In this document: positions 8,045 through 32,050 of the stretch, in pieces | Numbering within the stretch: the first letter of the stretch is position 1 | How the letters are laid out: each line of letters starts with the position of its first letter | Origin: an uncultured Verrucomicrobia subdivision 3 bacterium | Lineage (GTDB): Bacteria; Verrucomicrobiota; Verrucomicrobiia; Limisphaerales; UBA11358 | DNA: 33,883 nucleotides | Assembly: GCA_903861445.1 (NCBI GenBank) | Contig: CAIOUK010000072.1 | Span: forward strand, 1-33,883 | Direction of reading: 5' to 3' | Notes under the pieces: model-generated | The model's input: only the letters and a program-made list of their open reading frames with translations | Told to the model about the DNA's origin: nothing | Database searches by the model: none | Position numbers and translations under genes: made by a program

Positions 8045-8144
8045 TCGAATAAACCAATCAAACAACCCAGAACCATGGCCTCGAATCGAAATGCACAATG
8101 CATTATCAAGACGAGACCATAAACATAAAAAAGGAATCCAAGTT

Positions 8145-9257
8145 ATGATGAAGAAGTCCGTGTTTGCCGCGACCACTTTGTTGGCGGCAACGCTCATGAG
8201 CACTACTGGAGTATCGGCAGCTGATACTAGTTCGAAATATAATTTGCCCAAGCCGGACGGCAAGCCGGCGGACATGAGCAAGCCGGTGAAGGTATTTTTG
8301 ATCATGGGTCAATCCAACGCATTTGGCATGGGGCATCCTGCTGGTGACAAGGAGGGAACCCTGGAGCATGCGGTCAAGAAAGAAGGACTTTACTCGTTCC
8401 TGGTGGATGATTCCGGCAAGTGGACGGTGAGAAATGATGTGCGGAATGTGCAAATCGCGAATGGCAAAGGCGGGGGAGTGGGTATCCCGCACAACGAATG
8501 GATGACGGTCGGCAGCGGCAAAGGTGGTGCTCCCGCCGGCACCATGGGTGTGGAATTTGGTGTCGGTCACCAGCTTGGCAACGCCCTCGAAGATCCCGTC
8601 ATGATTCTCAAGACTTGCATTGGCAACCGCGCCCTCGGCTGGGATCTGCTGCCGCCAGGCAGTAAAGGCTATGATTTTACCAGCAAGGATAAGGCGGGCA
8701 ATGCAGTGACCTACACTTACGCTGGTTATGGTGAATCTCCAATGAAATGGGTGAAAGGCACCACGCCGGTGAAAATTGGCTGGCATGCCGGCTTGCAGTA
8801 TGACCTGGACGTCGCCAACGCCAAAAAAGTGTTGTCCGAGCTGGACAAGTATTATCCGGGAGCGAAAGGTTATGAAGTTGCCGGCGTTTTCTGGTGGCAG
8901 GGTGAAAAAGACTGTGGTGATGCGGGGCTTTCTACTCACTATGAAGAGAACCTCGTTAACTTGATCAAGGCGCTCCGCAAGGAATTCAATGCTCCTGACA
9001 TGAAATTTGTGATGGGCACGCTCGGCGAAGCTACGAAGGGCATCAGCGGCAATGAAGGACTGGTGCTGAATGCCATGATGGCGGTTGACGGCAAGAGCGG
9101 CAAGCATCCCGAGTTCCAGGGCAATGTGGCCACCGTTTACACCCATGACATGGCGCGTGGTGGTGGTGGCAATGGCCATTACAATCACGATTGCCGGGTC
9201 TACATGGATGTTGGTCTTTCTATGGGCGAAGCGATGGTTGAGCTGTTGAAGAAGTAA
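8145..9257 (+). CDS. secreted SGNH carbohydrate esterase of the SASA / sialate O-acetylesterase family
   Basis: Signal peptide MMKKSVFAATTLLAATLMSTTGVSAA; VFLIMGQSNAFGMG and VAGVFWWQGEKDCGD motifs. SD-like aaggaa upstream of ATG 8145. Confidence 0.87.
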   Translation: MMKKSVFAATTLLAATLMSTTGVSAADTSSKYNLPKPDGKPADMSKPVKVFLIMGQSNAFGMGHPAGDKEGTLEHAVKKEGLYSFLVDDSGKWTVRNDVRNVQIANGKGGGVGIPHNEWMTVGSGKGGAPAGTMGVEFGVGHQLGNALEDPVMILKTCIGNRALGWDLLPPGSKGYDFTSKDKAGNAVTYTYAGYGESPMKWVKGTTPVKIGWHAGLQYDLDVANAKKVLSELDKYYPGAKGYEVAGVFWWQGEKDCGDAGLSTHYEENLVNLIKALRKEFNAPDMKFVMGTLGEATKGISGNEGLVLNAMMAVDGKSGKHPEFQGNVATVYTHDMARGGGGNGHYNHDCRVYMDVGLSMGEAMVELLKK

Positions 9258-9270
9258 TCAAAAATAATAT

Positions 9271-9313
9271 AACAAGGGCAGCAGTTGTTTGAACGACTGC
9301 TGCCCTGTTCTTT
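9271..9313 (+). terminator. rho-independent terminator-like hairpin
   Basis: GGGCAGCAGT (9276-9285) pairs perfectly with ACTGCTGCCC (9296-9305), 10-nt loop, followed by TGTTCTTT. Confidence 0.8.
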
Positions 9314-9355
9314 ATGTCTGGCTGTAGTTTTGAAGACGGGTTGGTCTGCTGAATT

Positions 9356-10714
9356 ATGAAGCGGCGGGATTTTTTGAAAATCACCGGCACAAGTGCGGCT
9401 GCGTTCGCCTTGTTTCCGGAGGATTGGGTTTGTGCCGCTACCCCCACGGCCTTGGCCATCCGGGAATTTTTACAATCGGACAACCCCAAGGTGCTGGCGC
9501 TGGCGCAACGCGTCTTCGACAAATGCGTTTTAGAAAGACTGCGAACGCCGACGGAACCGTTCCTTCACACTTGGATTCAGGCGGGCGGGGACTATTACAA
9601 AGGCCAGTGGATTTGGGACACCATGTTCGTCGTGGACTTGCTCGCCATCCTGCCCGAACAGAAAAAAACGATTCGCGATATTTTTCAGAACTATTGGGAT
9701 TTTCAGGATCGTTGGAATAAATCCATGCCGGACTACGCGCACGACATGGTGACGGTGGCCATCAAGACCGCGCCGCAGGCGGTCCGGCAGTTTTCGCAAA
9801 TTCCCCTTCTGGCTTGGGGCGTGGAACGCGTCTATCTGCGCAACGGCGACAAGAAATTATTGGAGCAAAGCCTCGGGCGGCTCGAACGGTTCCACGACTG
9901 GTATTGGCGCGAGCGCGATGTCACCAACAGCGGTTTGATTGCCGTCGGTTCCTACAGCGGCATCGTGCAACATGCGCGGTGGGAAACCTACGATTACGAC
10001 GCCTCAATGGATGGTTTGAAACTCACGCCGCATCCGACGTGCAAGGGGCTGACGGAAGGCGCGTGGTATGGCGATGTCTGCGTGACGGGCAACACCGCCT
10101 ATTTGATTTTAGCCGAGCGAAGTCTGGCACGACTGGCAAACGTCATGGGCGATAAAGCCATGGCGGCACGGCGCGAACAGCGGATTAATAAATCCGTCCA
10201 AGCCATGCGCGATCATATGTGGGATGAAAAAGCCGGAACCTTTCTGGCGGTCAACCGTGACTCGCTGGAAAAAATCCCCGGAGCGACGATTGGCAGCTGG
10301 ATTCCTTTGGCGGCCGGCGTTCCCACTCAAACCATGGCCGACCGCATGGCGGAAGTGCTGGCTTCGCCTGACTGGATGACGCCGCTGCCCGTGCCCACGC
10401 TCGCGCGCAACGATCGGCGTTGGAAGGCCAATGGCTTCTGGCGCGGCGATGTCTGGCCGGCGACGAATTACCAGATTGCCACCGGTTTGGCCGCTTACGG
10501 GCACAAGGATTTGGCCGGCGACATTGCCGACAAGACCATCGCCAACGCCGTCCAACACGGTATCAACGAGCACTACGATTCTGTCACTGGCAAGCCGTTG
10601 GGGGTTTCAGATTATAGCATGAGTTGCACGTTGGTCACCATGATGCTGGACGGGCTGGCGCAAACACACACGCTGAAGCCGCTCGCCAAAAGCGGCGTTA
10701 AATTAATTTTGTAA
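9356..10714 (+). CDS. Tat-exported (alpha/alpha)6 glycoside hydrolase-like protein (GH63/GH37 clan-like)
   Basis: MKRRDFLKITGTSAAAFALF Tat-type leader; YKGQWIWDTMF, NGFWRGDVWPATNYQIATGL, EHYDSVTGKPLGVSDYSMSCTLV typical of trehalase/mannosylglycerate hydrolase-like enzymes. Confidence 0.75.
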   Translation: MKRRDFLKITGTSAAAFALFPEDWVCAATPTALAIREFLQSDNPKVLALAQRVFDKCVLERLRTPTEPFLHTWIQAGGDYYKGQWIWDTMFVVDLLAILPEQKKTIRDIFQNYWDFQDRWNKSMPDYAHDMVTVAIKTAPQAVRQFSQIPLLAWGVERVYLRNGDKKLLEQSLGRLERFHDWYWRERDVTNSGLIAVGSYSGIVQHARWETYDYDASMDGLKLTPHPTCKGLTEGAWYGDVCVTGNTAYLILAERSLARLANVMGDKAMAARREQRINKSVQAMRDHMWDEKAGTFLAVNRDSLEKIPGATIGSWIPLAAGVPTQTMADRMAEVLASPDWMTPLPVPTLARNDRRWKANGFWRGDVWPATNYQIATGLAAYGHKDLAGDIADKTIANAVQHGINEHYDSVTGKPLGVSDYSMSCTLVTMMLDGLAQTHTLKPLAKSGVKLIL

Positions 10715-10740
10715 CAAACAGATTGCGTCCGACGTCCATC
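10705..10740 (+). promoter_or_regulatory. conserved upstream block, copy 2 (AATTTTGTAACAAA-N13-ACGTCCATC)
   Basis: Matches copy 1 at 6031-6065; its 5' part overlaps the last codons of the upstream CDS. Confidence 0.4.
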
Positions 10741-10780
10741 ACTGGCCATCATATTTTTTGAACATAAATTGATTTCAACC

Positions 10781-13255: not shown

Positions 13256-14008
13256 ATGAAAACAAAATTAACCATGATTAAACTAAAATCATTCACAACG
13301 TTTTTTCTGGTCGCGCTGTTGCCGACGGCAACGTTTGCGTTTGAGAAAGATAGATCTGCGAAACCGGCGGTGCTGCCACCGAATCCCAATAATCTGCCCA
13401 AGGTATTGCTCATCGGCGACTCAATCTGCGGCGGCTATTGCAAGGCGGTTGCCAAAGCCCTTGAGGGCAAGGCCGTGGTGGGCAAGAGCAGCGACAATGG
13501 CGAGTCCACGGCGGTCGGAGTCATAAAAATAGATGGGTGGCTGGGCGATACCAAGTGGGATGTCATCCACTTCAACTGGGGTGTGTGGGACATGTATGGC
13601 TGGCAGTATGCAGCGGACGACCGATCGCCGGCAGCGTATGCGCAAAGACTCGAAATATTGGTTGTCCGTATGAAGAAGACCGGAGCCAAACTGATTTGGG
13701 CGACAACCACACCAGTTCCACCAAAACCCGAGACGGCCATGCTCAAGCGTTTCAAAAAAGAAGTGGTGATCAGTCCGGAGCTTGAACGCCAATATCGGGA
13801 AGCGGCGTTGAAAGTCATGAAGAAGTATGAAGTGACGGTGGATGATTTATACTCAGTGATGAAGCCGCATCAGAAGGAATTTCAAGCCGAAGACAATGTC
13901 CACTTCTCGCCCGGCGGATACAGCCTGCTGGCACAGCAGGTTGCCAAAGTCATTCTTCAGGAACTTAAACCGGCAGAGAAGAATCCGTCGTCAGCCAATC
14001 CAAAATAA
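13256..14008 (+). CDS. secreted stand-alone SGNH hydrolase, paralogous to the C-terminal domain of the sulfatase fusion
   Basis: Signal peptide MKTKLTMIKLKSFTTFFLVALLPTATFA; VLLIGDSICGGY, WDVIHFNWGVWDM, GAKLIWATTTPVP, DNVHFSPGGY. Confidence 0.87.
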   Translation: MKTKLTMIKLKSFTTFFLVALLPTATFAFEKDRSAKPAVLPPNPNNLPKVLLIGDSICGGYCKAVAKALEGKAVVGKSSDNGESTAVGVIKIDGWLGDTKWDVIHFNWGVWDMYGWQYAADDRSPAAYAQRLEILVVRMKKTGAKLIWATTTPVPPKPETAMLKRFKKEVVISPELERQYREAALKVMKKYEVTVDDLYSVMKPHQKEFQAEDNVHFSPGGYSLLAQQVAKVILQELKPAEKNPSSANPK

Positions 14009-14021
14009 ATACCGCTACCGT

Positions 14022-16424
14022 ATGAACGCACGTCCAATCCGCCAAATCCAGGTAAGGCCAATTTATCGCCGAAAATATTGGCTATTAATTTTTGCCGGTT
14101 TATTTATCCATATCGTCAATGTGAAGGCGGCCGCCGATGGGCCGATGGGGGTTGAGCGCGTCGCCCGGCCGGCCAAGCAAAACTACGCGAGCCCTTCGGT
14201 GACGAACCAAGATACCGTGTGCTGGGTGCAGGTGGATTTGCAGCGGTCGCTGCCCGTCGAAAAAGTTAAATTGTTTCCCATCGTCGATTGGAACTGGCTG
14301 GGCCCGATCAAAACTCAAAATTTTCCAGCCCGCTTCAAAATCGAGACGTCCGACGATCCGGAGTTTCGAACCGCCAGTCTCGTGGTTGATCAGACTGGTG
14401 CCGATTTTCCCAACACTGAAGACGCCGTCATCATATTCCCCGGCAACCGCGCGGCGGGGCGTTATGTGCGCCTCACCGCCACCCGCTTGAACGGCAAGAA
14501 ACTTTGCTTGATGCGGTTCGAGGTCTGGTCGGGCGGCACGAATGTGGCCGAAGGCTGTCCGGTCGCCGATTCGTTCAAGGGGAATTTGGGCGTGACGGAT
14601 CTTACCCGCAAAAGTCGGCCGCAAGATGAAGTGGTGACGGATAATCCCGGCAACATCCTGCCGGTCGCGCAATGGAAACCAGTGGCTTATCAAGCGCAAG
14701 CTCCGCTCGGCGGGGTGCATCTCGGCGAAGGTTTGTTCAAGACCGCGATGCAAAACAACATCACCTATCTGATGAGCACGGCCACGGTGGATGAAATGGT
14801 GCGCGATTTCCGCGAGCGCGCCGGCAAGTCGAATCCAAAAGGCCTGCGCAAGCCCAGCTATTTTTGGGATACCATGTTGGCTGGTCAGAACGCCGGCCGC
14901 TTCCTGATGGGAGCCGGTAACACCCTGCGCTGGATGGAAGATGCCGCCCTGCGCCAGCGCATGAATGAAGTTGTGGATGTGATTGCCGAGTGCCGTCGGC
15001 CTGACGGCTACATCATGGCTTTTCCGGCTGACGCCATTTTCACTTCGGAACGCGCGGCCTACACCCGGGCCTGGGTGACGCATGGGTTGATTGAAGCGGG
15101 CTACGCCGGGAATCCTAAAGCCTTTCCTTTGTTGCGCGGATTTTATGATTGGTTCAATCACAGTCCCTATTTGCCCGAACTGTTGCGTCGGCCGATCCAA
15201 GGGCAGCAGGGAACGATCGCCGATACCCGAGTCTATTTCACGCCCATTGGCAAACCGGAGGATCTACAGGTGGTGCAGCGTTATTTTCAAGAAGACTACT
15301 GGCTGGACCAGTTAGCCAAACGTGATCTGAAGGCGATTTGGAAATATCCGTATGACCGGCCGCACTGCTATCTGCTCACCGCGTTGGAGCCTTATCTGGA
15401 TTTGTATCGTGCGACCGGCGAACGCAAATATCTGGAGGCCGCAAAAGGTGGCTGGGAATTGTTTCACGACGACTGGGAACAAATCGGCGGATGTATCTCC
15501 ATCATTGAAGGCAAAGTTTGTCCCCCGAAATCGTATCTCTATCACGGCACCGGCGAACTCTGCGGGAGCGTTTTCATGGCGCGCTTGAGCCAGCGATTCC
15601 ATCTGCTCTATCCCGATGAGGACAAGTATGTCGAAGAGATCGAAAAAGCCATTTACAATGTCACGCTGGCGAATCAGCTGGGGGATGAAGGCATTCTTTA
15701 CCACGCCAATCTGGTCGGTCGCAAAGATGACAAGATTCCCCACGATATCGGCACCTGCTGCGAAGGACAAGGGACACGGATGATCGGGTCGCTGCCGGAA
15801 TATATTTATTCCATTGCCCCGGACGGCCTCTATGTTGATTTATTCGCCGCCTCGGAGATTACCTGGCAACAAAACAGCCAGACGCTCAAGGTGCAGATGA
15901 CCACCCGTTTTCCATTCGACAACAAAGTGGCCTTGCGCTTCTTACTGGCTGCCCCCACCGCATCAAAAATCCGCGTGCGCGTGCCGGCGTGGGCGGCCAA
16001 ACCCATGCCGATTCTGGTCAACGACCAACTTGTGGCAACCGGTGTGCCCGGCACCTATGTTACATTGGAGCGCACGTGGAAAGATGGCGACAATATCACT
16101 TTTACGCTGCCGGCTGAATTACAGATGACGAAATACACCGGTCAGGAAGCCACCGCCAAAAACCCGCGCTATGCCTTGCAATACGGTCCCATCTTGCTGG
16201 CGGCCGTCGGCACCGGCGCGGACAGCCCGGAAGCGCATTTTGCCTGCGATAGCGCCAGTCTCCTGAACCGCATCAAACCCAAAGCGGGGCAGCCGCTGCA
16301 CTTCTCCATCGAAGGCGAACCCAACTACAGCTTCATCCCTTATTGGGAAGTTCCGACAAAGCATAATTTTACCTGTTTCCCAACCTTCGCCGATAGCGGA
16401 GATCATCTGCCTGTTCGCCCATGA
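14022..16424 (+). CDS. GH127-like (DUF1680) beta-L-arabinofuranosidase-family protein with N-terminal discoidin-like domain
   Basis: TATVDEMVRDFRERAGKSNPKG...YFWDTMLAGQNAGRFL...TGELCGSVF...GTCCEGQGTRMIGSLPEYIYS; E-x-C and CC pairs match the Zn-ligand pattern known for GH127. Start at ATG 14022. Confidence 0.85.
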   Translation: MNARPIRQIQVRPIYRRKYWLLIFAGLFIHIVNVKAAADGPMGVERVARPAKQNYASPSVTNQDTVCWVQVDLQRSLPVEKVKLFPIVDWNWLGPIKTQNFPARFKIETSDDPEFRTASLVVDQTGADFPNTEDAVIIFPGNRAAGRYVRLTATRLNGKKLCLMRFEVWSGGTNVAEGCPVADSFKGNLGVTDLTRKSRPQDEVVTDNPGNILPVAQWKPVAYQAQAPLGGVHLGEGLFKTAMQNNITYLMSTATVDEMVRDFRERAGKSNPKGLRKPSYFWDTMLAGQNAGRFLMGAGNTLRWMEDAALRQRMNEVVDVIAECRRPDGYIMAFPADAIFTSERAAYTRAWVTHGLIEAGYAGNPKAFPLLRGFYDWFNHSPYLPELLRRPIQGQQGTIADTRVYFTPIGKPEDLQVVQRYFQEDYWLDQLAKRDLKAIWKYPYDRPHCYLLTALEPYLDLYRATGERKYLEAAKGGWELFHDDWEQIGGCISIIEGKVCPPKSYLYHGTGELCGSVFMARLSQRFHLLYPDEDKYVEEIEKAIYNVTLANQLGDEGILYHANLVGRKDDKIPHDIGTCCEGQGTRMIGSLPEYIYSIAPDGLYVDLFAASEITWQQNSQTLKVQMTTRFPFDNKVALRFLLAAPTASKIRVRVPAWAAKPMPILVNDQLVATGVPGTYVTLERTWKDGDNITFTLPAELQMTKYTGQEATAKNPRYALQYGPILLAAVGTGADSPEAHFACDSASLLNRIKPKAGQPLHFSIEGEPNYSFIPYWEVPTKHNFTCFPTFADSGDHLPVRP

Positions 16425-16674: not shown

Positions 16675-19383
16675 ATGGCATCACAGCTTTCAAAAATATT
16701 GGCGATTAGCGTCTTGCTGGTGGCCATGTGTTCGGTCGCTGCTGGTGCAACCGTTTCCGTGACCGACTTGCGGTGTGAGTATCTGGCCGAGCCGCCGGGC
16801 ATTGACACGCCATTGCCGCGCTTCAGTTGGAAGCTGGTGGACGCTGCGAAAACGCGCGGGCAGCGGCAGACGGCTTGCCAGATTATCGTGGAAACGGCAA
16901 CCGGGGCGGCGGCAGCGAAAAAAGTTTTGTGGGATTCGGGCAAAATTACGTCTGCCAATTCGGTGAACTTTGAATATGGCGGCACGCCGCTGACTTCAGG
17001 GCAGACCTGTTTCTGGAAAGTGCGGGTTTGGGACAAAGATGGCAACCCGACGGAATGGAGTGCGCCGGCGCGGTTTTCCATCGGTCTGCTTCAGCCGGCG
17101 GATTGGGAAGGCGATTGGATTCGGTTCAAGGAAGCCGACAATGTCAAGCACATCTGGTATCGAAAAAGTTTTTCCTTGAAGGACGTGCCGGCTTCCGCGT
17201 TTGTTTATCTCGCTTCGATTGGTTACCACGAGTTGTATGTGAATGGCGAGCGGATCGGTGACCGCGTGCTCACGCCCGAAATCACGGACTTGGAGAAGCG
17301 CGTCATCTACGTCACCTACGACATCACGAGCAAGCTGCGCGCGGGTGACAACGTGATCGCGGTCTGGACCGGACCGGGCTGGGCGCGGGCCGATGGTTCT
17401 TATGGCAAAAAAATCTGGAAACAGGACTCCATCTTTAATTGTCAGGTCAACTTATCAAATGACATGAAGCTGCACTCGGACGCGAGCTGGAAATGCCGAA
17501 TCAGTTCCAGCGAAAATCTCGGACTTTGGAAGGGCGGCGGCAAAGGAGAATACGGCGGCGAACTAGTTGACGCCCGGCGCGAGGTGCCGGACTGGAATCA
17601 GCCCGCTTACGATGACAGCGGCTGGAGCAACGCGTCTGTCTATCAGAAATCCATCATCCTGTCCGCGACGATGCAGGAGCCGGACCGCAAGATTGAAATG
17701 TTGAAGCCGGTATCCATGACAGAAACGAATGGCGAATACACTTTCGATCTGGGCCGGAACTTTACCGGGTGGATTGAGTTCGATTTGCGTAACGGCAAGG
17801 CTGGGGAAGTGGTGAAATTTCTGACCGCCAACCGGCCGGGAACCAAAATTGATTTCAAGCAGGAAAGCCGATACATCTACAACACCAACGGCACTGGCAC
17901 ATTTCGCCATCGCTTCAACTACTGCGCCGGGCGCTGGATCACCGTTGCCGGGCTTTCTTACAAACCGGATTTGAAAGACCTGCGTTGTTACATCGTCACG
18001 AACGACCGCAAACGGATCGGGAGCTTTAATTGCTCAAAGGAACTCTTCAACCAGATTTATGAAACCGACTTGCGGACTTATCTGGCGTGCACTGTCAACG
18101 GCGTGACCATGGATTGTCCGCATCGCGAGCGGTTTGGTTACGGCGAGGTCGCGCTGGCCTGCACCTGGGGCTGCGGCATGCCGAACTTTGAATCCGCGCC
18201 GTATTATCGCAAGGCCGCGCGCGACTGGTTTGACGTGCAGCGCGCGGACGGTTTCGTCAACACCATCGCGCCGCAGGTCTACAAAGGTGCGGGCGGCACG
18301 CTTTGGAGCAGTGCACCGATCACCTTGAGCTGGGAGTTTTACAAAGCTTACGGCGACCGGCGATTTTTGGCGGAAGCTTATTCGCCAATGAAAAAATGGC
18401 TGGATTACTTGAACCACGCGGTTTCAGCCGAAGGCGTGCTGACGAACTACGCCGGCGCAGCGCGGTTTCTCGGCGACTGGGCGACGCCGCACGGCAGCGA
18501 ATATGGCAACACGCCAGCGGCGCAGTTGTTCAACAACGGTGTGTATGCTTACGGCCTCGGAGTGTTGGTTGAGTCGGCAAAAATTTTGGGCAATCCGGAA
18601 GATGTAAAAATTTATTCGGCGCGGCTGGAGGAGTTGCGGAAGAATGTTCACCGCCACTTTTTTAATGCGGACAGTAAGACCTACATTGACGGACGGCAAC
18701 TGGCGATGGCCTTCCCGCTCTACACTGGCATTACGCCGGCGAGCGAACGCGCGGCGGTGTTCAAGAATTTCGCGGATGAGATTAACCGCAAAGGCTATCT
18801 CGACACGGGCAGTTCCGGTCTGCCCATTCTGCTGAAGTTCATCGTTGAAGATGCGGAGCGTGCTGATCTCCTGTTCCCGAGTTTGGCGCGAACGGAAGCT
18901 CCGAGTTACGGCTTCTTTCTGAAATCCGGCGAGACGACGTGGCCGGAATATTGGAAGGGGGAAGACTTGTTCAGCCGCATCCACACTTGTTACACGGGCA
19001 TCGCCGGTTATTTCATCAAGGCGATTGGCGGCATCCGGCCTGACCCATCGGCTTGGGGAATGCAGCAGTTTCTCCTCAAGCCCAGCCTTGTCGGTGATTT
19101 GACTTACGCGAACACCAGCAGCGGTTCGTATTATGGCAACATCGTATGCAACTGGGCCCGCACGGGGAACACCGCGACGTTCGACGTGGAAATTCCGCCG
19201 AATACGACCGCGAAAGTTTTCATTCCCGCCGCGAAAGTGGACGACGTGCGCGAAGGCTCCAGCCCCGCCGCAAGTGCCGAGGGCGTTTTCTATCTCGGTC
19301 AGGAAAGTGGTTGCGCCGTGTTTTCTGTTTCGTCTGGGGCGTATCGGTTTAATAGTTCATCGGTTCCCGCGCGGGCGAAATAA
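16675..19383 (+). CDS. GH78-like alpha-L-rhamnosidase
   Basis: VTDLRCEYLAEPPGIDTPLPRFSWKL N-terminus, YHELYVNGERIGDRVLTPEITDLEKRVIYVTYDIT, catalytic-region motif DCPHRERFGYGEVALA. Confidence 0.92.
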   Translation: MASQLSKILAISVLLVAMCSVAAGATVSVTDLRCEYLAEPPGIDTPLPRFSWKLVDAAKTRGQRQTACQIIVETATGAAAAKKVLWDSGKITSANSVNFEYGGTPLTSGQTCFWKVRVWDKDGNPTEWSAPARFSIGLLQPADWEGDWIRFKEADNVKHIWYRKSFSLKDVPASAFVYLASIGYHELYVNGERIGDRVLTPEITDLEKRVIYVTYDITSKLRAGDNVIAVWTGPGWARADGSYGKKIWKQDSIFNCQVNLSNDMKLHSDASWKCRISSSENLGLWKGGGKGEYGGELVDARREVPDWNQPAYDDSGWSNASVYQKSIILSATMQEPDRKIEMLKPVSMTETNGEYTFDLGRNFTGWIEFDLRNGKAGEVVKFLTANRPGTKIDFKQESRYIYNTNGTGTFRHRFNYCAGRWITVAGLSYKPDLKDLRCYIVTNDRKRIGSFNCSKELFNQIYETDLRTYLACTVNGVTMDCPHRERFGYGEVALACTWGCGMPNFESAPYYRKAARDWFDVQRADGFVNTIAPQVYKGAGGTLWSSAPITLSWEFYKAYGDRRFLAEAYSPMKKWLDYLNHAVSAEGVLTNYAGAARFLGDWATPHGSEYGNTPAAQLFNNGVYAYGLGVLVESAKILGNPEDVKIYSARLEELRKNVHRHFFNADSKTYIDGRQLAMAFPLYTGITPASERAAVFKNFADEINRKGYLDTGSSGLPILLKFIVEDAERADLLFPSLARTEAPSYGFFLKSGETTWPEYWKGEDLFSRIHTCYTGIAGYFIKAIGGIRPDPSAWGMQQFLLKPSLVGDLTYANTSSGSYYGNIVCNWARTGNTATFDVEIPPNTTAKVFIPAAKVDDVREGSSPAASAEGVFYLGQESGCAVFSVSSGAYRFNSSSVPARAK

Positions 19384-19411: not shown

Positions 19412-22400
19412 ATGAAAAACCGGATTGATAGGAGCATATTTCGGATGGATAGTGGCGGGATGCAAGTTGCCTGTCGTAAAAGTTTTCTGTCCGCGTGCTT
19501 GTTCGTTTTCAGCATGGCGTCGATGGCGGTGGCGCAGTCGGCGCCGGATCTCACGGTGGGCACCAACCGCTTCACGGTCTACACCAATAGCCAATACTAC
19601 ATGGGTGGCCAATTTTTTACCTACAACTTGGGACCCACGGGACTGCGCGGCTGGATTTACGCATTGGGTCCGAGTTCACTGGATCAATTTACTTCCATTG
19701 CACCCTGGCAGATTCTGGTCACCTCGGTGGGCACCAACACGCCGGCGGTTGGCTTCCTCCAAACCAACGATGTCATTTTGGGGGTGGCGGCCGGATTGCC
19801 GCCGGCACCGCTCTTTACGAATGATTCGCGCATTGTGCTGGGCAACGCCATCACCGCCGCCGAGGCCGGCAACGGCAAACTTAGTTTTCTGGTGAACCGC
19901 TACGGCGTCAGCACCAACATGAATTTTACCATTCAGTTGCGGATGACCAACATGGCCTACAGCGGCACTGCGCCGTATAACTGCCCTAAGTCGGCGTTGA
20001 TTCTGTCCAATGCCTTGAATGTGATCAGCCAGCGGAATGGGGGTTCGCAGGCTTTAGCATTATTAGCCAGTGGTAACACCAATTACCTGCCTCAAGTGCA
20101 GAGTTATGCGCGCTCGATTGCGCCGGCGAACCTCGTGTTGGGATGGCCGACTTATCAGGGCGTGGGGGGCGGGGATGATACCTGGACCATGGGATACAAT
20201 GGGCTGTTGCTCGCTGAGTATTATATGGTGACCCACGATTCACAGGTGACCAATGCGTTGACGCAATATATCGTGGGGCTCGCCAAAAGTGATACGATGT
20301 GGGGCTGTTACGGTCATGGTGGCGCGAAAGTTATGCCTTATCATGTGGCCGCCGGAGTGCATGGTTATGGTTCGGGCTATGGCCCGGTCAATGCCTGCGG
20401 TTTGCTTTGCAAGTTGGCCATGGCGGTAGCCCAGAAGACTGGTATTCCGAGCATCGTGAACAACCCGGAATTCCAGCCGGCCATTAATCGCTCCATTAAT
20501 TTTTACGGCTACTATGTCCAAAAGGGCATGGTTCCTTATGGGGAAATGCCACCGTATTGGGATAATTATCATCCGGTCGGCAAGGATGGTTTGGCCGCCT
20601 TGTTCTTTGGGGTGTTGAGCAATCAAACGACTCAAGCCCAGTATTTCACGCGGATGAGCCTGGCGTCTTACTATTCCCGGGAAACCGGACATAACGGCTC
20701 GGGTTGGGGCTTGTGCTGGGACACGCTGGGCACAGTCATGGGCGGCACCAACGCTGCGGCCGCCTTTTCCGCCAACGCCCGTTGGCAATTGGAACTGGCT
20801 CGCCGTTGTGATGGTTCTTTTGCTTACGATTGCACCAGTGACACAATCAGCACGACTTCAGACTACTGGGGCTATGAAGACTATCAAGGCTTCTTGGATC
20901 CCACCGCATGGAATGCGCTGTTCCTGTCCGCGCCCAAGCAGGCGCTCTACATCACCGGCAAGAACGCCAACCCGTCGAATTACCTTACCGATGCCGCCGT
21001 GTCCAATGCAGTCTGGGCGGGGCAATGGCTCGCGAACGTGTCGAGCTATACCACGAACCAACTCATCGCCAATTTGAGCGAGTATCAGCCGACAGTGCGT
21101 CATGCGGCGGCGCAGCAACTGGCCGCCCTGTGCGCGACCAACGCAGCAATCAGCAACGCGGTTGCGCCGACGCTGATTATGTTGACGACCAACAGCAATC
21201 CGTGGACGCGCGAAGCAGCCTGCGACGCGCTCGGCAGCATGAAGTGCACAAATGCGCTTAACGCATTGGCGGCGCGGATGTATGACACTGATGTGTGGGT
21301 GCGCTTCAACGCAAATAATGCGCTGGACCAATTGGGCACGGCGGCCCTGCCGCAGTTGACGAACATCATGACGGCGTTCACCACCTACGCCTCACCGGAT
21401 CCATTGGTATCAATCAACTGGAATGATCCCTGCGGCTGGGGCAACGGTTATCTGGCTCACCTCCTGTTCAATACGCTCGCCAACAATACCATCGCTCAAA
21501 GCGTGGATCTGTTGTATCCGGCGGTCAATGCCGGATTGCTGGGACAACCAGATCGAATGGAGCAATCTCAAATAGGTCCTTTTCTCAAAAATCAGTTAAG
21601 CTGGCAGGATGTGCAGGCGGTGGCTCCGGCGCTGATGGTGGTCGGGAGCAAGATGGCACAAGCCGACCCGATGTGGGACGGCGCGGAGGCCGACGCGCTC
21701 GCGTGTCTGGCCAAATTCGGAGTCCCTGAAGGCTTGGCCGCACTCGCAGTGACGACCGACTCCGGGATAACATTCGATGGTGCCGGCAGGTTGACGCAAG
21801 CTTACCAGACCTACGGCACCGAAGCCGCCCAACTGCTGCCCACGCTGTATAATATGGAAACGACTGGCCAATCTAATGGTTGTGCCGGGTTAATTGCGGC
21901 GCTCCAGGCCAACGTCAACAATTTGCCGGCCGTGAACAGTTTCGTGCAGTTCTCCGTGGCGTCGGCGACGCCTTCCGCCGTCGGCATGGCGGCGGCTACC
22001 AACGTGGTTCTGAACGTGGCCGCATCCGATCTGAGTGGATGGAATCTACACTACGCGTGGTCGGTTGCGCAGGGACCGGGCACGGTCAGCTTTAGTAATC
22101 CGACCAACGCCAGCTGCACCGCTTCGTTTTCTGCTCCGGGAGTCTATGTCTTGCAAGTGGCGGCCGCGCCCGTCATGGACCGAAATCTTTTTTGGGATCC
22201 CGCCATTCCGGGCGCGATGTTCATGTGGGGTGATCCGACCTGGACATTTAATACCTGGACCAATTTTTATGGCGCATCCTACACCAATGTGCTCGTCACC
22301 GTCCTCGGCCCGCCGAGTGTCAACAATGCGGGTGGCGTAATCAAGCAGACGGCGACTTCCGCCGCCCTGCAAGGGTTGCTGACGGCCGGAGGCGGAGCAA

Positions 22401-24136
22401 ACGCCTGGTTTTGCTGGGGTGATCATGATGCCGGCACCAACAGTCCCAATGCGTGGGATGCGATCCAGACTGCGGGCACCGTGTCCGAGGGGACGGTATT
22501 TTCAGCCACGGTGACCGGACTCGCCACCAACAAAACTTATTTTTACCGCTGCTTTGTAACCAACGTAACCGGTCAGGCTTGGTCGGCTGCCGCCACCAGC
22601 TTCAGCGCCGTGCCGGCCAACGGCGGTTCTGGATACAACATGCAGATTTCTTTTACCAACTACAATCGGGCCGAGACCTTAACCAACTTCCCGCTGCTGG
22701 TGGTGCTCAGCAACGGCATGGCGGGAGCCACATTCGACTTTGGCACCTTTCTGACGACCAACGGCTATGACCTGCGGTTCACTGACAGCACCGGGCTGAC
22801 TAACTTGAACTACGAAATTGAAAGTTGGTCCGGCGCCAGTGCCAATGTCTGGGTGCAAGTGCCACGGTTCAATAGTAACTGCTCCATTTGGGCGAAGTGG
22901 GGGAATATTTCACAGACTAATCAGCCGGCTTATACCACTAATGGCGCGACTTGGGATAGCACCTTTAGAGGGGTCTGGCATTTTCCGGCCGGTGCAAGCC
23001 TTTCGGTGTTAGATTCGACAAGTAACAAGAACAACGGCACTAACTTTTCAGCTACAGCCGCTCAAGGAGCGGTGGGCGGAGGAATATATGCAGCATCAGG
23101 GCAATATATCGACCTGCCGAACAAGAATAACAGCTTGGACATATCTGCTGGAGACTGGACTATGCAAGCGTGGGCGAAACCCACCGCCTCTCTTCATTGG
23201 GTCAATCTCGTGTGTGCTAATAATTATTACGGTATTGCGGGGGGGGCAAATTCGCGGTGGAGTTTGCTGCAAGCTGACAACATTGTAGCCTGCGCAGATA
23301 GTGTTCCGGATGGTTCATTTCAGCATATGATGGCGACGCATTCCGGAACCAACAATAATTTTTACATAAATGGGTCTCTTCAGTCTTCAGTTTATCCTGA
23401 CAACAATTATTATTTTGGCCACCCATATTGCATCGGGCTTGGCTATTCTTCTTTTGCTGGTTCGATTGATGAAGTTCGCATCGAGGGTGTGGCTCGTTCG
23501 TCCAACTGGGTCTGGGCTTGTTACATGAACATGGCTTCTAACTCATTCTTCAATACGCCGAGTCCGGTCACATCATTCTGGTTATCTGCACCCATCGCGA
23601 ACCTGGCTCCGACCGGCATTACGACTAATTCCGCCACGCTGAATGCGGCCATGTCGGTTCCCGTCACAAACTATGCAGTGACCGTTTACTGGGGCACCAC
23701 TAACGGTGGAACCAATGCTGGCGCGTGGACGAATAGTGCATCCGTTGGTTCCTGGACCAATGTGGCGCTGACTAACATCGCGTATCAGGTCAGCGGGTTG
23801 TCGCCTGGAACGAAATACTATTACGCCTTCCGGGCGACGAATGCTTCGACCAACGTGTGGGCCACGCCAAGCTGGCAGTTTTTGACCTTGAATGTCAATG
23901 GCGCTGCCACGCCTGGGAAGTTCAAGGGTGTCAGCATAAGCGGGAGAATGTTGGGGCTGGTGGTGACGAACGGAACACCGGGCGGCTCATGGACCTTGCT
24001 GCAAAGCACGAACCTGGCACAGCCGATAAGCCAATGGCAGACCAACTGCACGGGCACCTACGATGGCAGCGGCAATCTCTCCACAAACATCGCCAACATA
24101 GTCACCAACCGCATGGGTTTTTACCTCCTGAAATAA
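19412..24136 (+). CDS. very large secreted multidomain protein: PDZ-like/alpha-alpha toroid (DUF6288-like), HEAT-like repeats, DUF2341, LamG-like, FnIII-like
   Basis: Signal peptide (SACLFVFSMASMAVAQ); toroid-like WPTYQGVGGGDDTWTMGYNGLLLAEYY; HEAT-like NPWTREAACDALGSMKCTNALNALAARMYDTDVWVRFNANNAL; DUF2341-like NFPLLVVLSNGMAGATFDFGTF; LamG-like DWTMQAWAKPT...FAGSIDEVRIEGVARS. Start uncertain (GTG 19400, ATG 19412 or ATG 19445). Confidence 0.75.
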   Translation: MKNRIDRSIFRMDSGGMQVACRKSFLSACLFVFSMASMAVAQSAPDLTVGTNRFTVYTNSQYYMGGQFFTYNLGPTGLRGWIYALGPSSLDQFTSIAPWQILVTSVGTNTPAVGFLQTNDVILGVAAGLPPAPLFTNDSRIVLGNAITAAEAGNGKLSFLVNRYGVSTNMNFTIQLRMTNMAYSGTAPYNCPKSALILSNALNVISQRNGGSQALALLASGNTNYLPQVQSYARSIAPANLVLGWPTYQGVGGGDDTWTMGYNGLLLAEYYMVTHDSQVTNALTQYIVGLAKSDTMWGCYGHGGAKVMPYHVAAGVHGYGSGYGPVNACGLLCKLAMAVAQKTGIPSIVNNPEFQPAINRSINFYGYYVQKGMVPYGEMPPYWDNYHPVGKDGLAALFFGVLSNQTTQAQYFTRMSLASYYSRETGHNGSGWGLCWDTLGTVMGGTNAAAAFSANARWQLELARRCDGSFAYDCTSDTISTTSDYWGYEDYQGFLDPTAWNALFLSAPKQALYITGKNANPSNYLTDAAVSNAVWAGQWLANVSSYTTNQLIANLSEYQPTVRHAAAQQLAALCATNAAISNAVAPTLIMLTTNSNPWTREAACDALGSMKCTNALNALAARMYDTDVWVRFNANNALDQLGTAALPQLTNIMTAFTTYASPDPLVSINWNDPCGWGNGYLAHLLFNTLANNTIAQSVDLLYPAVNAGLLGQPDRMEQSQIGPFLKNQLSWQDVQAVAPALMVVGSKMAQADPMWDGAEADALACLAKFGVPEGLAALAVTTDSGITFDGAGRLTQAYQTYGTEAAQLLPTLYNMETTGQSNGCAGLIAALQANVNNLPAVNSFVQFSVASATPSAVGMAAATNVVLNVAASDLSGWNLHYAWSVAQGPGTVSFSNPTNASCTASFSAPGVYVLQVAAAPVMDRNLFWDPAIPGAMFMWGDPTWTFNTWTNFYGASYTNVLVTVLGPPSVNNAGGVIKQTATSAALQGLLTAGGGANAWFCWGDHDAGTNSPNAWDAIQTAGTVSEGTVFSATVTGLATNKTYFYRCFVTNVTGQAWSAAATSFSAVPANGGSGYNMQISFTNYNRAETLTNFPLLVVLSNGMAGATFDFGTFLTTNGYDLRFTDSTGLTNLNYEIESWSGASANVWVQVPRFNSNCSIWAKWGNISQTNQPAYTTNGATWDSTFRGVWHFPAGASLSVLDSTSNKNNGTNFSATAAQGAVGGGIYAASGQYIDLPNKNNSLDISAGDWTMQAWAKPTASLHWVNLVCANNYYGIAGGANSRWSLLQADNIVACADSVPDGSFQHMMATHSGTNNNFYINGSLQSSVYPDNNYYFGHPYCIGLGYSSFAGSIDEVRIEGVARSSNWVWACYMNMASNSFFNTPSPVTSFWLSAPIANLAPTGITTNSATLNAAMSVPVTNYAVTVYWGTTNGGTNAGAWTNSASVGSWTNVALTNIAYQVSGLSPGTKYYYAFRATNASTNVWATPSWQFLTLNVNGAATPGKFKGVSISGRMLGLVVTNGTPGGSWTLLQSTNLAQPISQWQTNCTGTYDGSGNLSTNIANIVTNRMGFYLLK

Positions 24137-27087
24137 TGGAATTATCACGTTGTCAGATTCGGCTCTGGATGTTTCTGGTCGTATTGGTGGGGCTGGCCCA
24201 TGAGGTTGGTGCGGCGACCGGGCAATCGGACAGTTCGCTTTCGCTGGCCGGGACTTGGCGGTTCCAGCTCGACCCGAAAAATATTGGTGTTGAGAAAAAG
24301 TGGTTCGCAGAAAAATTGGAGGACTCGGTCACGCTGCCGGGCACGACCGACACCAATCACAAAGGCATTTTCAAGGACGAACACGCGGTGGATCGGCTCT
24401 CGCGGGTCTGGTATTGGAAAGGTCCGGCGTGGTATCAGCGCGAGGTCGTGATTCCCGAAACTTGGCAAGGCAAGCGCATCACACTGATGCTGGAGCGGAC
24501 CAAAAATACCCACGTGTGGGTGGATGACCAAGATTGCGGCGGCGAGGATACGCTCAGCGCCCAGCAAATTTTTGATCTCACCCGCGTGCTGACGCCCGGT
24601 CGCCACACGATTATCGTGCTGGTGGACAACGCCAAACTGCCGCCCGTCGGGCCGGCGCACGCGGTGGACGAGCGGACGCAATCAAATTGGAATGGCATCA
24701 TCGGCCGCATCGAATTGCGCGTCACAGATCCTGTGTGGATTGAAGATGTCCAAGTCTATCCCGACGCGGATAAAAAACAGGCGCGCGTCCGCGTGGTCGT
24801 GGGTAACAGCACAGGTCAACTGGCGCAAGGAAAGCTCACTGTCAACTGCCGCAGCTTCAATATCGCCAAACCTGCAGATTTCGTTGCACAATCCATTGCT
24901 GTGTCGGCGACGAATGCGCGCACCGTGGTCGAGTTTGTTTATCAACCCGGCGAAGCCGCGCCGTTGTGGGATGAATTTCAGCCGGCCATGTTGCGGCTGA
25001 ATTTGCAATTGTCGGCCACTACCTACGGACAACTTTTTGCCGATCAACAATCGGTCAGTTTTGGCCTGCGCGATTTCAAACGCGACGGCCAACGTTTCGC
25101 TATCAACGGGCGGACGGCATTTCTGCGCGGGCGGTTGGATTGCGCCAATTATCCGCTGACCGGTTATCCGCCGATGGACAAGGCCGGCTGGCTCCGCGTT
25201 TTGGGAATTCTCAAGGACTGGGGACTCAACCACGTTCGTTTTCATTCGTGGTGTCCGCCCGAGGCGGCGTTCGCGGCGGCGGACGAACTGGGATTTTATT
25301 TTCAGGTGGAGCTACCGAACAAGCGCAGCGCGTTCAATGCGTCGGAAAGCACGGAGGCGGCCAAGCGCAATATTGATTACCTCGACGTTCCGGCGGATCC
25401 CAAAGCCTCGCTCTACGATTACGCGGTGCGTGAGGCAGATTTGATTTTCCGGCAATTTGGCAACCATCCCTCGTTTGTGATGTTCACGCTGGGCAACGAG
25501 CTTGGTCGCAGCCCGGCGATGTATGATTTGGTGGCGCGCTTCAAAAAACGCGACCCGCGCCATCTCTACGCCCAGGGATCAAACAACAATCACTGGAACC
25601 CCACTTATGCTGAAGGCGACGATTTTTGGGTGACGCACAAGACTGGAAAAACTCTGCCGGTGCGCGGCGCTTATTTTTCAGGCGATATGGCTGGCGGCGG
25701 CTACATTTACAACCAGCCACCCTCGACGCTCGTCAATTATTTCGATTCCATCAAGGACGTGCCGGTGCCGGTCATCGGGCATGAAATAGCCGAGTTTGAA
25801 GTCACGCCGGATTTTAGCGAAATCCCCAAATACACGGGCGTGATGCGGGCGCGCAATCTGGAAATTTTTCAGGAGCGCTTGAAGAAGGCCAATATGCTGG
25901 ATTTCGCGCCCGATTTCATGCGGGCCTCCGGCGCGCTCGCGGCCATCTGCCAGCGCGAGGACATCGAGGCGGCTTTGCGCACGCCGGGCTTTGGCGGTTT
26001 TCAATGGCTGGACATCCAGGATTTTCCGGGTCAGGGCACGGCGCTGGTCGGGATGCTGAACGATTTCATGGAAAATAAAGGCATCACGACGCCGGAGAAA
26101 TGGCGGCAGTTTTGTTCCCCGGTCGTGCTGCTGATCGAGATGCCGAAATACACTTGGACTGCGGATGAAACTTTCACGGCAGAAATCAAAGTCGCGAATT
26201 ATGGCCCGTCGAACATCACGAATGCCCGCGTGAAATGGCAAATTATTGATAATGGTAGTGATGTTAAAAGAGCTGTTTATAGATCAACGCTGGTGTGTTC
26301 TGAAGGTGTAATAGATTCGAAGCTAATTAAGCAGGGAGGGTTGACTTCTATCGGCCAGATTGGCGTTCCTTTGGATACACTCATGACTCCGCAAAAAATT
26401 CAAGTGAGAGTCTGGATTGATGGGATTTCGCAGACTGCGTGGAACACATACGACATTTGGGTGTATCCGCCAAAAGCGGACAACAGCATCCCGAAAGACG
26501 TGGTGGTTACGAATCGCCTCGACGAAGCGACGCTGAAATTTTTGTCGGATGGCGGCAAGGTTTTGTTGTTCTCTCCGAACAACGATATGAAGCACAGCGT
26601 GGGCGGCGCGTTCCCGACCGACTTCTGGTGCTGGGCAATGTTTTCCAAAGGAGCCATCGCGCAAGGGATCGAACCGGCGCCCGGCACACAAGGTTTTCTG
26701 TGCGACCCGAAGCATCCCGCGCTGGCGGAGTTCCCCACCGAGTTCCACAGCAACTGGCAGTGGTGGCAGATTGTCAAAAATTCGCGGCCCATTGTTTTAG
26801 ATGAAACTCCGGCGGATTACCGACCCATTATTCAGGTCATTGACAACTTCGCCCGCAATCACAAACTCGGACTGCTCTTTGAAGCGAAAGTTGGCCAAGG
26901 TAAGTTGCTGGTTTGCGCCAGCGACTTGCCAGCCCTTCAAGAACATCCCGAAGCGCGGCAACTGTTGCACAGCCTGCTGCGCTATGTGGTTTCTCCGGCC
27001 TTCGCGCCGCGCGCAGAATTTGATGTCGGGCTTTTGAAGAAACTGTTGCCGGGCGAAACGCAGGGAGAGTTAAGCCCGCAAAAATGA
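24136..27087 (+). CDS. GH2-family glycoside hydrolase (beta-galactosidase/beta-glucuronidase-like)
   Basis: LAGTWRFQLDPKNIGVEKKWF, jelly-roll/TIM signatures, acid/base motif NHPSFVMFTLGNELGRSP. ATG 24136 overlaps the upstream TAA (TAATG). Confidence 0.9.
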   Translation: MELSRCQIRLWMFLVVLVGLAHEVGAATGQSDSSLSLAGTWRFQLDPKNIGVEKKWFAEKLEDSVTLPGTTDTNHKGIFKDEHAVDRLSRVWYWKGPAWYQREVVIPETWQGKRITLMLERTKNTHVWVDDQDCGGEDTLSAQQIFDLTRVLTPGRHTIIVLVDNAKLPPVGPAHAVDERTQSNWNGIIGRIELRVTDPVWIEDVQVYPDADKKQARVRVVVGNSTGQLAQGKLTVNCRSFNIAKPADFVAQSIAVSATNARTVVEFVYQPGEAAPLWDEFQPAMLRLNLQLSATTYGQLFADQQSVSFGLRDFKRDGQRFAINGRTAFLRGRLDCANYPLTGYPPMDKAGWLRVLGILKDWGLNHVRFHSWCPPEAAFAAADELGFYFQVELPNKRSAFNASESTEAAKRNIDYLDVPADPKASLYDYAVREADLIFRQFGNHPSFVMFTLGNELGRSPAMYDLVARFKKRDPRHLYAQGSNNNHWNPTYAEGDDFWVTHKTGKTLPVRGAYFSGDMAGGGYIYNQPPSTLVNYFDSIKDVPVPVIGHEIAEFEVTPDFSEIPKYTGVMRARNLEIFQERLKKANMLDFAPDFMRASGALAAICQREDIEAALRTPGFGGFQWLDIQDFPGQGTALVGMLNDFMENKGITTPEKWRQFCSPVVLLIEMPKYTWTADETFTAEIKVANYGPSNITNARVKWQIIDNGSDVKRAVYRSTLVCSEGVIDSKLIKQGGLTSIGQIGVPLDTLMTPQKIQVRVWIDGISQTAWNTYDIWVYPPKADNSIPKDVVVTNRLDEATLKFLSDGGKVLLFSPNNDMKHSVGGAFPTDFWCWAMFSKGAIAQGIEPAPGTQGFLCDPKHPALAEFPTEFHSNWQWWQIVKNSRPIVLDETPADYRPIIQVIDNFARNHKLGLLFEAKVGQGKLLVCASDLPALQEHPEARQLLHSLLRYVVSPAFAPRAEFDVGLLKKLLPGETQGELSPQK

Positions 27088-29227: not shown

Positions 29228-32050
29228 ATGAAAAAAATTATATTCCTAGCCGCCGTTTTATTTTCGGTCTGCGCCAAGTCGTCGGAACTTTCGCCGGCGC
29301 AATTTATCAATCCGCCAATTGACGCGCGTCCCGGTGCCTATTGGGTCTGGCTCAACGGCAACGTGGATCGCGCCCAGCTCACCCATGAGCTGGAAGAGAT
29401 GAAAGCCAAGGGAATGTCCGGCGCGGAAATCTGGGATATCGGCCTGACCACGCCGAATCCGGACATGCCCGTGCCGGTCGGCCCGGCGTATCTGAGTCCG
29501 GAATCCGTGGCCTCCATCCGCCATGCGGACAAGGAAGCGGCGCGGTTGGGTTTGAATCTCGGCCTGATCTCCTCCAGCAGTTGGAACGAGGGCGGCAGTT
29601 GGGTCGAGCCGAAGGACGCCATTAAGGCATTGTATGTCAGCGCCACCAATTTTTCCGGGCCGGCCAAAATTTCGCAGCCGTTGGCGTTCCCGGCGAACCG
29701 CGCGGTCAAGGCCGCCGACGGCTTGCCGCTCTATCATCGCGAAGTGGCCGTCATAGCGTTCCCGGCGTCCGCCCAAAAAATAATTCCCTCTGTCGCCTCG
29801 GTGTTGAACCTGACCGACAAAGTCAATGCCGCCGGCGAATTGCAATGGGACGTGCCGCCGGGCGAATGGACCGTGTTACGCCTCGTCTGTGCGACCACCG
29901 GCCAGCAGCTCGTCGTGCCCAGTCCCAATTCGCGTGGCTTGATGGTGGATCACATGGATGCCGGCGCGGAGCAGCGGAATTACGAAAATATTTTTCAGCG
30001 GCTGTTTCCGCATGGCGAAAATTTTTCGGCGCTGAAATTTTTTCAGGAAGACAGCATCGAGCTGAATCCGCCGCAGAAAACCGGCGGTATCGCGGACTGG
30101 ACGGACAATTTCCCGGCGGAATTCAAACAATATCGCGGTTACGATATTACTCCGTATCTGCCCGTGTTGGCGGGACAAAAGTTTACCAATCCGGAACTGG
30201 CCGAACGGTTTTTGCACGACTACCGTGAAACCGTCAGCGACCTGTGGCTCGACCGGCATTATCTCGTCGCCAAAAAACTACTGCACGAACGCGGTTTGCA
30301 AATCGCCGGCGAACCCGGTCACGGCGGCTATCCTCGTCCGGAAGTGTTGCGCGCACTCGGTGCCATGGATATTCCGCGCGGCGAATTTTGGAACACCCGC
30401 AAAAACTGGGTCACCAAGGAAGCCGCTTCCGCCGCCCATATCTACGGCCTGAAATACGCGGACGCCGAATCCTTCACCGGCTGGCGCAGTTGGCAGGACG
30501 GCCCGTTTGAATTGAAACGCTTGGCCGACACCGCGTTTTGCGACGGCATGAACCGGATGACGATTCACAACTTCGCGCACAATCCGCCGGCCGCCGGGCT
30601 GCCGGGCAATTGCTATCACGCCGGCGAACACGTCAACGTCAACACGACTTGGTGGCCGATGTCCGCGCCGTTCTTCGCCTATCTCGACCGCTGCTGCTAT
30701 ATGCTGCAACAAGGTTTGTCCGTGGCCGATGCCTGTTTTTACTACGGCGACGACGCGCCGAATCTGGTGGCCGCCCGCCGCATTGACACCAAGCCCCAGC
30801 GTGTGGACGGTGAGATTTGCCAGCATTGCTTCCGCACCAATCCCGCGCCCGCCAATGTGCTGGGTGACGGCTACGATTACGACGTGGTTAATTCCGAGGT
30901 CATCCTCACGCGCATGACCGTGAAGGACGGCCGGTTGACGTTGCCGAATGAAATGAGCTACGCCGTGCTCGTTCTGCCCGACCGCGACGATATGCCGTTG
31001 GTCGTGTTGAAGAAAATCGAGAGCTTTGTCCGCGCCGGTGCCATCGTCCTCGGCCCCAAGCCCGTTCACGCTTCTGGTTTGACCGGCTATCCGCAATACG
31101 ACATGGAAATCCAGTCGCTCGCCACGCAGCTTTGGGGCGATTGCGACGGCGAAAAAGTGCGCGAACGCGCCTACGACAAAGGCTTGATTGTCTGGGATCG
31201 CAACCGCGTCCGCGAAATTTTGCAGCAGCATAAAATCATTCCCGACTTTGTTTGCAGCACCACGGACAACAACGCGGACTTGGATTATTTTCACCGGCGC
31301 ACGGCGGCTGCCGACATTTATTTCGTCAGCAACAAGGGGCTCAATCCGATGGACACGGAATGTGTCTTCCGCGTCACCGGCAAACAACCGCACTTCTGGC
31401 TGCCGGACACCGGCGAAATTCAGCCGTGCGAAAATTACGAAATCGGTGCCAACAGCACGCGGGTGAAATTGAAATTGCCGTCGGGCGGCAGCGTGTTCGT
31501 CGTGTTTGAAGGCCAGCCGGAAAAATTGCAAGCGTCGTCGCCCGCCGCATTGCCACCGCCCGCCGCGCCAGTCGAAATCACCGGTTCCTGGCTGGTCAAA
31601 TTTCCGCCGCACCTTGGCGCGCCGCCGGCCTGGACTTTTGAGCAGCTCGTTTCCTGGACGAGCGTCACCAACGAGGGCGTGAAATATTTTTCCGGCACGG
31701 CCACTTACTTCAAAGACTTTGAAGCGCCTGCGGATGCACTGGTTACCGGTCGGCGGGTGATTTTGGATTTGGGATCGCTCCGCAATGTCGCGGACGTGAC
31801 GCTCAACGGTCAGCATCTTGGCATCCTGTGGAAACCGCCGTTCCAAGTGGACGTGACCGGCGCGATGCATGCCGGCACCAATCAACTTCAGATCGAAGTG
31901 GTCAACGTTTGGGCCAACCGTATTGTTGGCGATGCCAAACTGCCCAAGGCGCAACGCGTCACGCAAATGGCGCAGAAACTGCCGGTGCAAGGCCCGCATG
32001 AATCCGGTTTGCTGGGGCCGGTCAGCTTGCGTTTCGAGGCGGCGCGGTAA
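29228..32050 (+). CDS. GH106-like alpha-L-rhamnosidase family protein
   Basis: FINPPIDARPGAYWVWLNGNVDRAQLTHELEEMKAKGMSGAEIWDIG, ISSSSWNEGGSWV, C-terminal galactose-binding-like NGQHLGILWKPPFQVDVTGAMHAGTNQLQIEVVNVWANRIVGD. Confidence 0.87.
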   Translation: MKKIIFLAAVLFSVCAKSSELSPAQFINPPIDARPGAYWVWLNGNVDRAQLTHELEEMKAKGMSGAEIWDIGLTTPNPDMPVPVGPAYLSPESVASIRHADKEAARLGLNLGLISSSSWNEGGSWVEPKDAIKALYVSATNFSGPAKISQPLAFPANRAVKAADGLPLYHREVAVIAFPASAQKIIPSVASVLNLTDKVNAAGELQWDVPPGEWTVLRLVCATTGQQLVVPSPNSRGLMVDHMDAGAEQRNYENIFQRLFPHGENFSALKFFQEDSIELNPPQKTGGIADWTDNFPAEFKQYRGYDITPYLPVLAGQKFTNPELAERFLHDYRETVSDLWLDRHYLVAKKLLHERGLQIAGEPGHGGYPRPEVLRALGAMDIPRGEFWNTRKNWVTKEAASAAHIYGLKYADAESFTGWRSWQDGPFELKRLADTAFCDGMNRMTIHNFAHNPPAAGLPGNCYHAGEHVNVNTTWWPMSAPFFAYLDRCCYMLQQGLSVADACFYYGDDAPNLVAARRIDTKPQRVDGEICQHCFRTNPAPANVLGDGYDYDVVNSEVILTRMTVKDGRLTLPNEMSYAVLVLPDRDDMPLVVLKKIESFVRAGAIVLGPKPVHASGLTGYPQYDMEIQSLATQLWGDCDGEKVRERAYDKGLIVWDRNRVREILQQHKIIPDFVCSTTDNNADLDYFHRRTAAADIYFVSNKGLNPMDTECVFRVTGKQPHFWLPDTGEIQPCENYEIGANSTRVKLKLPSGGSVFVVFEGQPEKLQASSPAALPPPAAPVEITGSWLVKFPPHLGAPPAWTFEQLVSWTSVTNEGVKYFSGTATYFKDFEAPADALVTGRRVILDLGSLRNVADVTLNGQHLGILWKPPFQVDVTGAMHAGTNQLQIEVVNVWANRIVGDAKLPKAQRVTQMAQKLPVQGPHESGLLGPVSLRFEAAR

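Follow-up and report, generated by a model that had tools for sequence, protein, structure and literature searches.

The window, a 33,883-nucleotide stretch from the genome of an uncultured Verrucomicrobia subdivision 3 bacterium, contains the large forward-strand open frame given in the initial annotation as 19412-24136; it ends at 24136 and encodes 1578 amino acids if begun at GTG 19400, or 1574 from ATG 19412. By eye, the likeliest start is ATG 19445, with AGGAG ahead of it at 19430-19434, which would give a protein of about 1563 amino acids; residue numbers throughout are counted from ATG 19412.

Gene and domain architecture

The features of the gene are as follows:

19412..24136, + strand: whole gene, 1574 aa from ATG 19412
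19445..19534, + strand: predicted signal peptide MDSGGMQVACRKSFLSACLFVFSMASMAVAQ, cleavage near residue 41 (read from the sequence, no predictor)
19607..19957, + strand: PDZ domain, residues ~66-182, including DUF6288 model positions 1-80 (DegQ/DegP PDZ profile matches, Pfam PDZ matches of the relative L074, model strands)
19958..20989, + strand: (alpha/alpha)6 toroid, residues 183-526, the toroid part of DUF6288 (Pfam, E 2.8e-69 alone; AlphaFold2; Foldseek)
20534..20584, + strand: divergent loop PYGEMPPYWDNYHPVGK, residues 375-391, in which the family's His379/His386/Asn389 are Met/Tyr/Val (family alignment)
20990..21910, + strand: HEAT-type helical repeats, residues 527-833 (HEAT_2 Pfam match and helices in the AlphaFold2 model)
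21998..22162, + strand: PKD-like module, residues 863-917, below the Pfam cut-off
22469..22588, + strand: FnIII-like module near residues 1020-1059 (Pfam Pur_ac_phosph_N match, above cut-off)
22760..22924, + strand: DUF2341 (Pfam on the fragment alone, 32.1 bits, cut-off 23.4)
23096..23509, + strand: LamG-like module (Laminin_G_3), residues 1229-1366, E 2e-14 (Pfam, above cut-off)
23600..23848, + strand: FnIII-like module (fn3), residues 1397-1479, below the Pfam cut-off

Several modules had been named before from the sequence. Both the HEAT-like (HEAT_2 at residues 588-653, E 6e-10) and LamG-like modules pass their Pfam cut-offs, as does DUF2341 when the fragment is scanned alone, and the FnIII-like modules are weak, the Pur_ac_phosph_N match (an FnIII-like fold) lying above its cut-off and the fn3 match below. 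As to the description as a surface protein, an export signal is present, and no anchor motif was seen in the protein. The PDZ domain at the N-terminus, the PKD-like match after the HEAT region, and the placement of the toroid in a named Pfam family go beyond the initial annotation. A search for tandem repeats in the gene found none, and comparing the protein with the sequences of solved structures gave nothing beyond HEAT-type repeats and matches that were of FnIII type or due to chance.

The gene lies in a glycosidase cluster, where its stop codon overlaps the ATG of the downstream GH2 gene (TAATG):

6095-8044 and 10769-12931, + strand: orphan proteins of 649 and 720 aa, no family assignment
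8091..9257, + strand: SASA-type carbohydrate acetylesterase (Pfam)
9356-10714, + strand: MGH1-like glycosidase
13896-16424: GH127 glycosidase
16675..19383, + strand: GH78-type alpha-L-rhamnosidase, directly upstream (family match)
24136..27087, + strand: GH2 glycosidase, exo-beta-1,4-galactosidase BT4151-like, directly downstream (family match)
29228..32050, + strand: GH106 alpha-L-rhamnosidase (family match)

Further members are a sulfatase, a GDSL esterase, a short-chain dehydrogenase, and a mannonate-dehydratase-like protein. The MGH1-like, GH127, and GH78 families have (alpha/alpha) toroid catalytic domains, so three such glycosidases are already present in the cluster. Neither orphan is matched by a Pfam family above cut-off, by NCBIfam, or significantly by a solved structure (10769-12931 has a sub-threshold CBM6 match). 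They are equally open candidates for the missing backbone enzyme, and the absence of a recognised one therefore does not single out the protein studied here.

Family and fold of the toroid

Residues 100-517 match the Pfam family DUF6288 (PF19805) over model positions 2-402 with an E-value of 5e-88 and 296 bits, against a curated cut-off of 26.3 bits. DUF6288 is a Pfam family without an assigned function, and this match rules out a protein of unknown kind; the toroid is hence not the new domain that the initial annotation had proposed, and the three N-terminal motifs quoted there are present as conserved loops of DUF6288. The PDZ domain precedes the toroid, the order that DUF6288 membership requires. 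The first 80 model positions are identified as PDZ by a profile of 20 members, which matches DegQ, DegP, and other PDZ chains, and one relative (L074) is matched by the PDZ Pfam models; against the sequences of solved structures, the family profile returned PDZ and chance matches and nothing else. Model positions 1-80 fuse the PDZ onto the toroid, so that partial matches to unrelated PDZ proteins are possible. Sub-threshold matches to the model in the E. coli and B. subtilis control genomes are attributed to PDZ proteins.

The alpha/alpha character of the N-terminal region, also proposed earlier, is upheld by structure prediction and fold search together. AlphaFold2 models of the core and of the toroid alone both reached a pTM of 0.89 (77 and 75 sequences), and in the toroid model some 11 main helices follow one another as hairpins, in keeping with an (alpha/alpha)6 toroid. 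The whole-core fold search was swamped by HEAT proteins and uninformative, and it was therefore redone with the toroid alone. Its best Foldseek matches are GH76, GH88, and PL27 (5noa), with further GH76 and GH105 structures; others include linalool dehydratase, squalene-hopene cyclase, the terpene cyclase MstE, and complement TED. Across these matches TM is mostly 0.4-0.55, with E-values no better than 6e-4. For the predicted model, these matches settle the fold class and not the family, and a TM of about 0.5 to glycan enzymes and terpene cyclases alike identifies no activity. No polysaccharide lyase family is among the Pfam or NCBIfam matches of the protein at E up to 0.1.

The fold search also raises the possibility of a toroid of the terpene-cyclase or prenyltransferase type acting on a lipid or peptide and not on polysaccharide. 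Along with the cyclase and dehydratase fold matches, a weak profile link leads to SQHop_cyclase and Prenyltrans-type proteins (hhalign probability 48%) through intermediates that themselves match DUF6288 below cut-off; Pfam assigns neither SQHop nor Prenyltrans to the window toroid. The export signal, the esterase and glycosidase gene neighbours, and the structural look of the common motif around W258-D276 speak against this reading, which we regard as quite improbable.

Distribution and association with acetylesterases

DUF6288 is above cut-off in 49 of 388 genomes of the phylum. The genome of the window, 2.66 Mb long and 79% complete, contains 10 matches, 7 of them across nearly the full model. 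In a public genome collection scanned by pattern, at least 557 relatives were confirmed, of which 80 were retained, and their titles are mostly those of Verrucomicrobiota and Planctomycetota MAGs; the motifs used bias the 80-locus set toward PYG[DE]H. Scanning genome contigs with the window domain alone as query gave zero matches, and an alignment succeeded. The proteins fall into two size classes, compact (~830 aa) and long (1,400-3,400 aa). No relatives turned up on plasmids. A full-text search of one literature collection found no paper naming DUF6288, and searches on SASA in Planctomycetes and Verrucomicrobia, and on HEAT, fucoidan, or sulfatase in Verrucomicrobia, brought up nothing relevant.

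The new result is an association between DUF6288 genes and SASA-type carbohydrate acetylesterases. The directly upstream same-strand gene is a SASA-type esterase at 25 of 57 DUF6288 loci, against a figure of 20 of 266 among the other genes on the same strand (Fisher 2.5e-10); these loci come from the 80 motif-selected ones, and related loci are not independent. Because of this selection and kinship, the count was repeated with HMM-found positions in 17 genomes, where, among the SASA matches listed, 14 of 55 DUF6288 domains have SASA within 4 kb, with 0.9 expected from the listed-SASA density and genome kinship ignored. All 14 nearby SASA genes are on the same strand as DUF6288, and the other 41 of the 55 have no SASA match within 4 kb among the matches listed.

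The two families also meet within single proteins. DUF6288, HEAT, and SASA are joined in one relative (L074), and DUF6288-SASA fusions occur in single open frames of three further genomes (G210, G215, and G320). Full scans of four upstream partners showed each to be a DUF2341-LamG-SASA protein, with the same module pair that is fused to DUF6288 in the window protein. Window-genome paralogues at L127, L128, and L129 adjoin SASA proteins; the window's own SASA gene is in the cluster and not adjacent to the DUF6288 gene. At L128, the paralogue and its upstream SASA protein adjoin a GH59 galactocerebrosidase-like gene (8976-10922). Two paralogues (L126 and L127, on G000:C215) lie in a region that by eye resembles exopolysaccharide synthesis, with sugar-nucleotide enzymes, glycosyltransferases, acyltransferases, and a possible exosortase.

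The SASA association speaks for a family role tied to glycans, and a glycan-directed role is the best-supported reading. It could be taken further: DUF6288 proteins may be exported toroid enzymes that work with SASA esterases in cleaving acetylated polysaccharides, with the window protein neofunctionalised through a rebuilt active-site loop and a new specificity, an extension to which we give a small chance of being right.

Conserved core, divergent loop, and exchanged tail

Conservation was assessed against 52 other DUF6288 members found by profile or whole-genome search with no motif filter. Eight residues (K193, W258, E269, Y270, T274, D276, Y376, and H427) are invariant (52/52) and N327, H302, W436, and R464 occur in 49-51 of the 52, all retained in the window protein; E378 and D467 are conserved acids. 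Three positions of one loop are changed: H379 (44/52), H386 (44/52), and N389 (50/52), common rather than invariant and by themselves not defining for DUF6288, are Met, Tyr, and Val. The closest comparison is a homologue from another genome (G396; L156/L167), 72% identical over the toroid, which has Met, Tyr, and Gly at these positions and forms a clade with the window protein on a joint long stem within the family tree. In the motif-selected set the window protein departs at 21 of 94 positions, a count that overstates divergence because the patterns favour PYG[DE]H; in the HMM-selected set it is not among the most deviant members, and what sets it apart is limited to particular loop positions.

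The conserved positions are grouped in the loops that precede odd helices and should therefore share one ring face, as active sites of toroid enzymes do, a placement that helix order and conservation suggest for the predicted model. Loop conservation gave a mixed result, the loops before odd helices being longer and their mean conservation not higher in every case. The long loops carry conserved His, Asn, Tyr, and Arg, which we take to recall toroid lyases.

The PDZ and toroid core is under purifying selection, with dN/dS against the G396 homologue of ~0.12 in the PDZ and ~0.19 in the toroid. Identity to this homologue is 71-83% in toroid and PDZ and 26% in the C-terminal part, the C-terminal third is not confidently alignable, and Cadherin-like and PATR modules stand in place of DUF2341-LamG, so that C-terminal modules are swapped between otherwise conserved cores. 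The genes upstream of the homologue encode a methyltransferase and a protein that matches no Pfam family, and none of the neighbours scanned has a glycosidase match.

This exchange, the loss of the loop residues, and the small share of the toroid, roughly one fifth of the protein, would suit a non-catalytic adhesin or scaffold, in which PDZ and HEAT bind proteins, glycan is bound by LamG and DUF2341, and the toroid serves as a rigid binding platform. Such a role is rather unlikely in our judgment, given that many relatives are compact (~830 aa), leaving no room for added binding modules while the loops are still strongly kept, and that the DUF6288-SASA fusions suggest a metabolic role.

Probable role of the protein

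The initial annotation had proposed that this protein supplies the cluster's backbone-cleaving enzyme, as a lyase or hydrolase. The toroid with its leading GH76, GH88, and PL27 matches, the lyase-like residues of its loops, and the flanking GH78 and GH2 genes, together with GH106 close by, are consistent with such an activity. PL27 targets rhamnose-glucuronate linkages (PMC8377490), and the cluster is rich in rhamnosidases. The proposal was nonetheless not borne out: H379, H386, and N389 are changed in the clade, the homologue lies outside such a glycosidase cluster, and the two orphans are alternative candidates. An active backbone-cleaving enzyme is thus unlikely, and from the sequence of the loop, cleavage by the window protein appears slightly disfavoured. 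The broader description as polysaccharide-active fares better, in that fold, loops, GH2 overlap, and SASA link make a glycan-directed toroid likely; catalysis is unproven.

The reading that we prefer, tentatively and at somewhat less than an even chance, is an exported divergent DUF6288 protein whose PDZ/toroid/HEAT core engages carbohydrate alongside acetylesterases and whose loop has been rewired in its clade. The PDZ, (alpha/alpha)6-toroid, and HEAT core bears exchangeable beta-type modules (DUF2341, LamG, and FnIII-like), with the PDZ possibly binding a partner. It most likely engages carbohydrate at the toroid face built by the long loops before odd helices, and would act in the same glycan-processing step as the acetylesterases. 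That face may be catalytic in the DUF6288 family; because one loop is rewired in the clade, altered specificity or binding without cleavage would be likelier here than the family's original activity. Several observations count against this explanation. The fold similarity of the model is generic (TM ~0.5) and extends to complement TED, linalool dehydratase, and squalene cyclase, and the weak sequence neighbours are toroids of the squalene-cyclase and prenyltransferase type. Carbohydrate enzymes seldom contain PDZ or HEAT domains. The 41 of 55 genes without listed SASA within 4 kb, the two own-genome paralogues in what looks by eye like an exopolysaccharide-synthesis region, and the homologue with no glycosidase match among its scanned neighbours also count against it. 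On balance, the DUF6288 toroid protein is probably part of glycan processing.

DUF6288 is abundant in MAGs of Verrucomicrobiota and Planctomycetota, phyla known as degraders of complex polysaccharides, and the link to acetylesterases, being reproducible, provides a role that can be tested. A catalytic toroid would mean an additional CAZyme-like family; a non-catalytic one would be an example of a toroid that aids glycan use without being an enzyme.

Comparison with known systems

The PL27 rhamnose-glucuronate lyase BACCELL_00875 (PDB 5noa) is likewise an (alpha/alpha)6 toroid (TM ~0.53, E 8e-4), at 12% identity and an rmsd of 6.8 A to the window toroid in a comparison by fold and identity alone. 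It cleaves at rhamnose-glucuronate linkages and has an N-terminal beta-sandwich (PMC8377490), whereas the window protein has a PDZ domain at its N-terminus. The toroid hydrolases of GH76 and GH88/GH105, the best Foldseek matches, share the fold class at 9-14% identity, again compared by fold and sequence alone; neither Pfam nor the PDB sequence search matches the window protein to them. Squalene-hopene cyclase and prenyltransferase toroids are of the same fold class, with weak profile similarity through intermediates, but have different gene partners. The PDZ domains of DegP and DegQ align with the first 80 model positions, and the window protein differs from them in having no protease domain. 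The closest likeness is to other members of DUF6288 (PF19805), which have the same PDZ-toroid-HEAT order; the window protein differs from these relatives in having no SASA directly adjacent, in the replacement of H379, H386, and N389, and in its DUF2341-LamG-FnIII-like tail.
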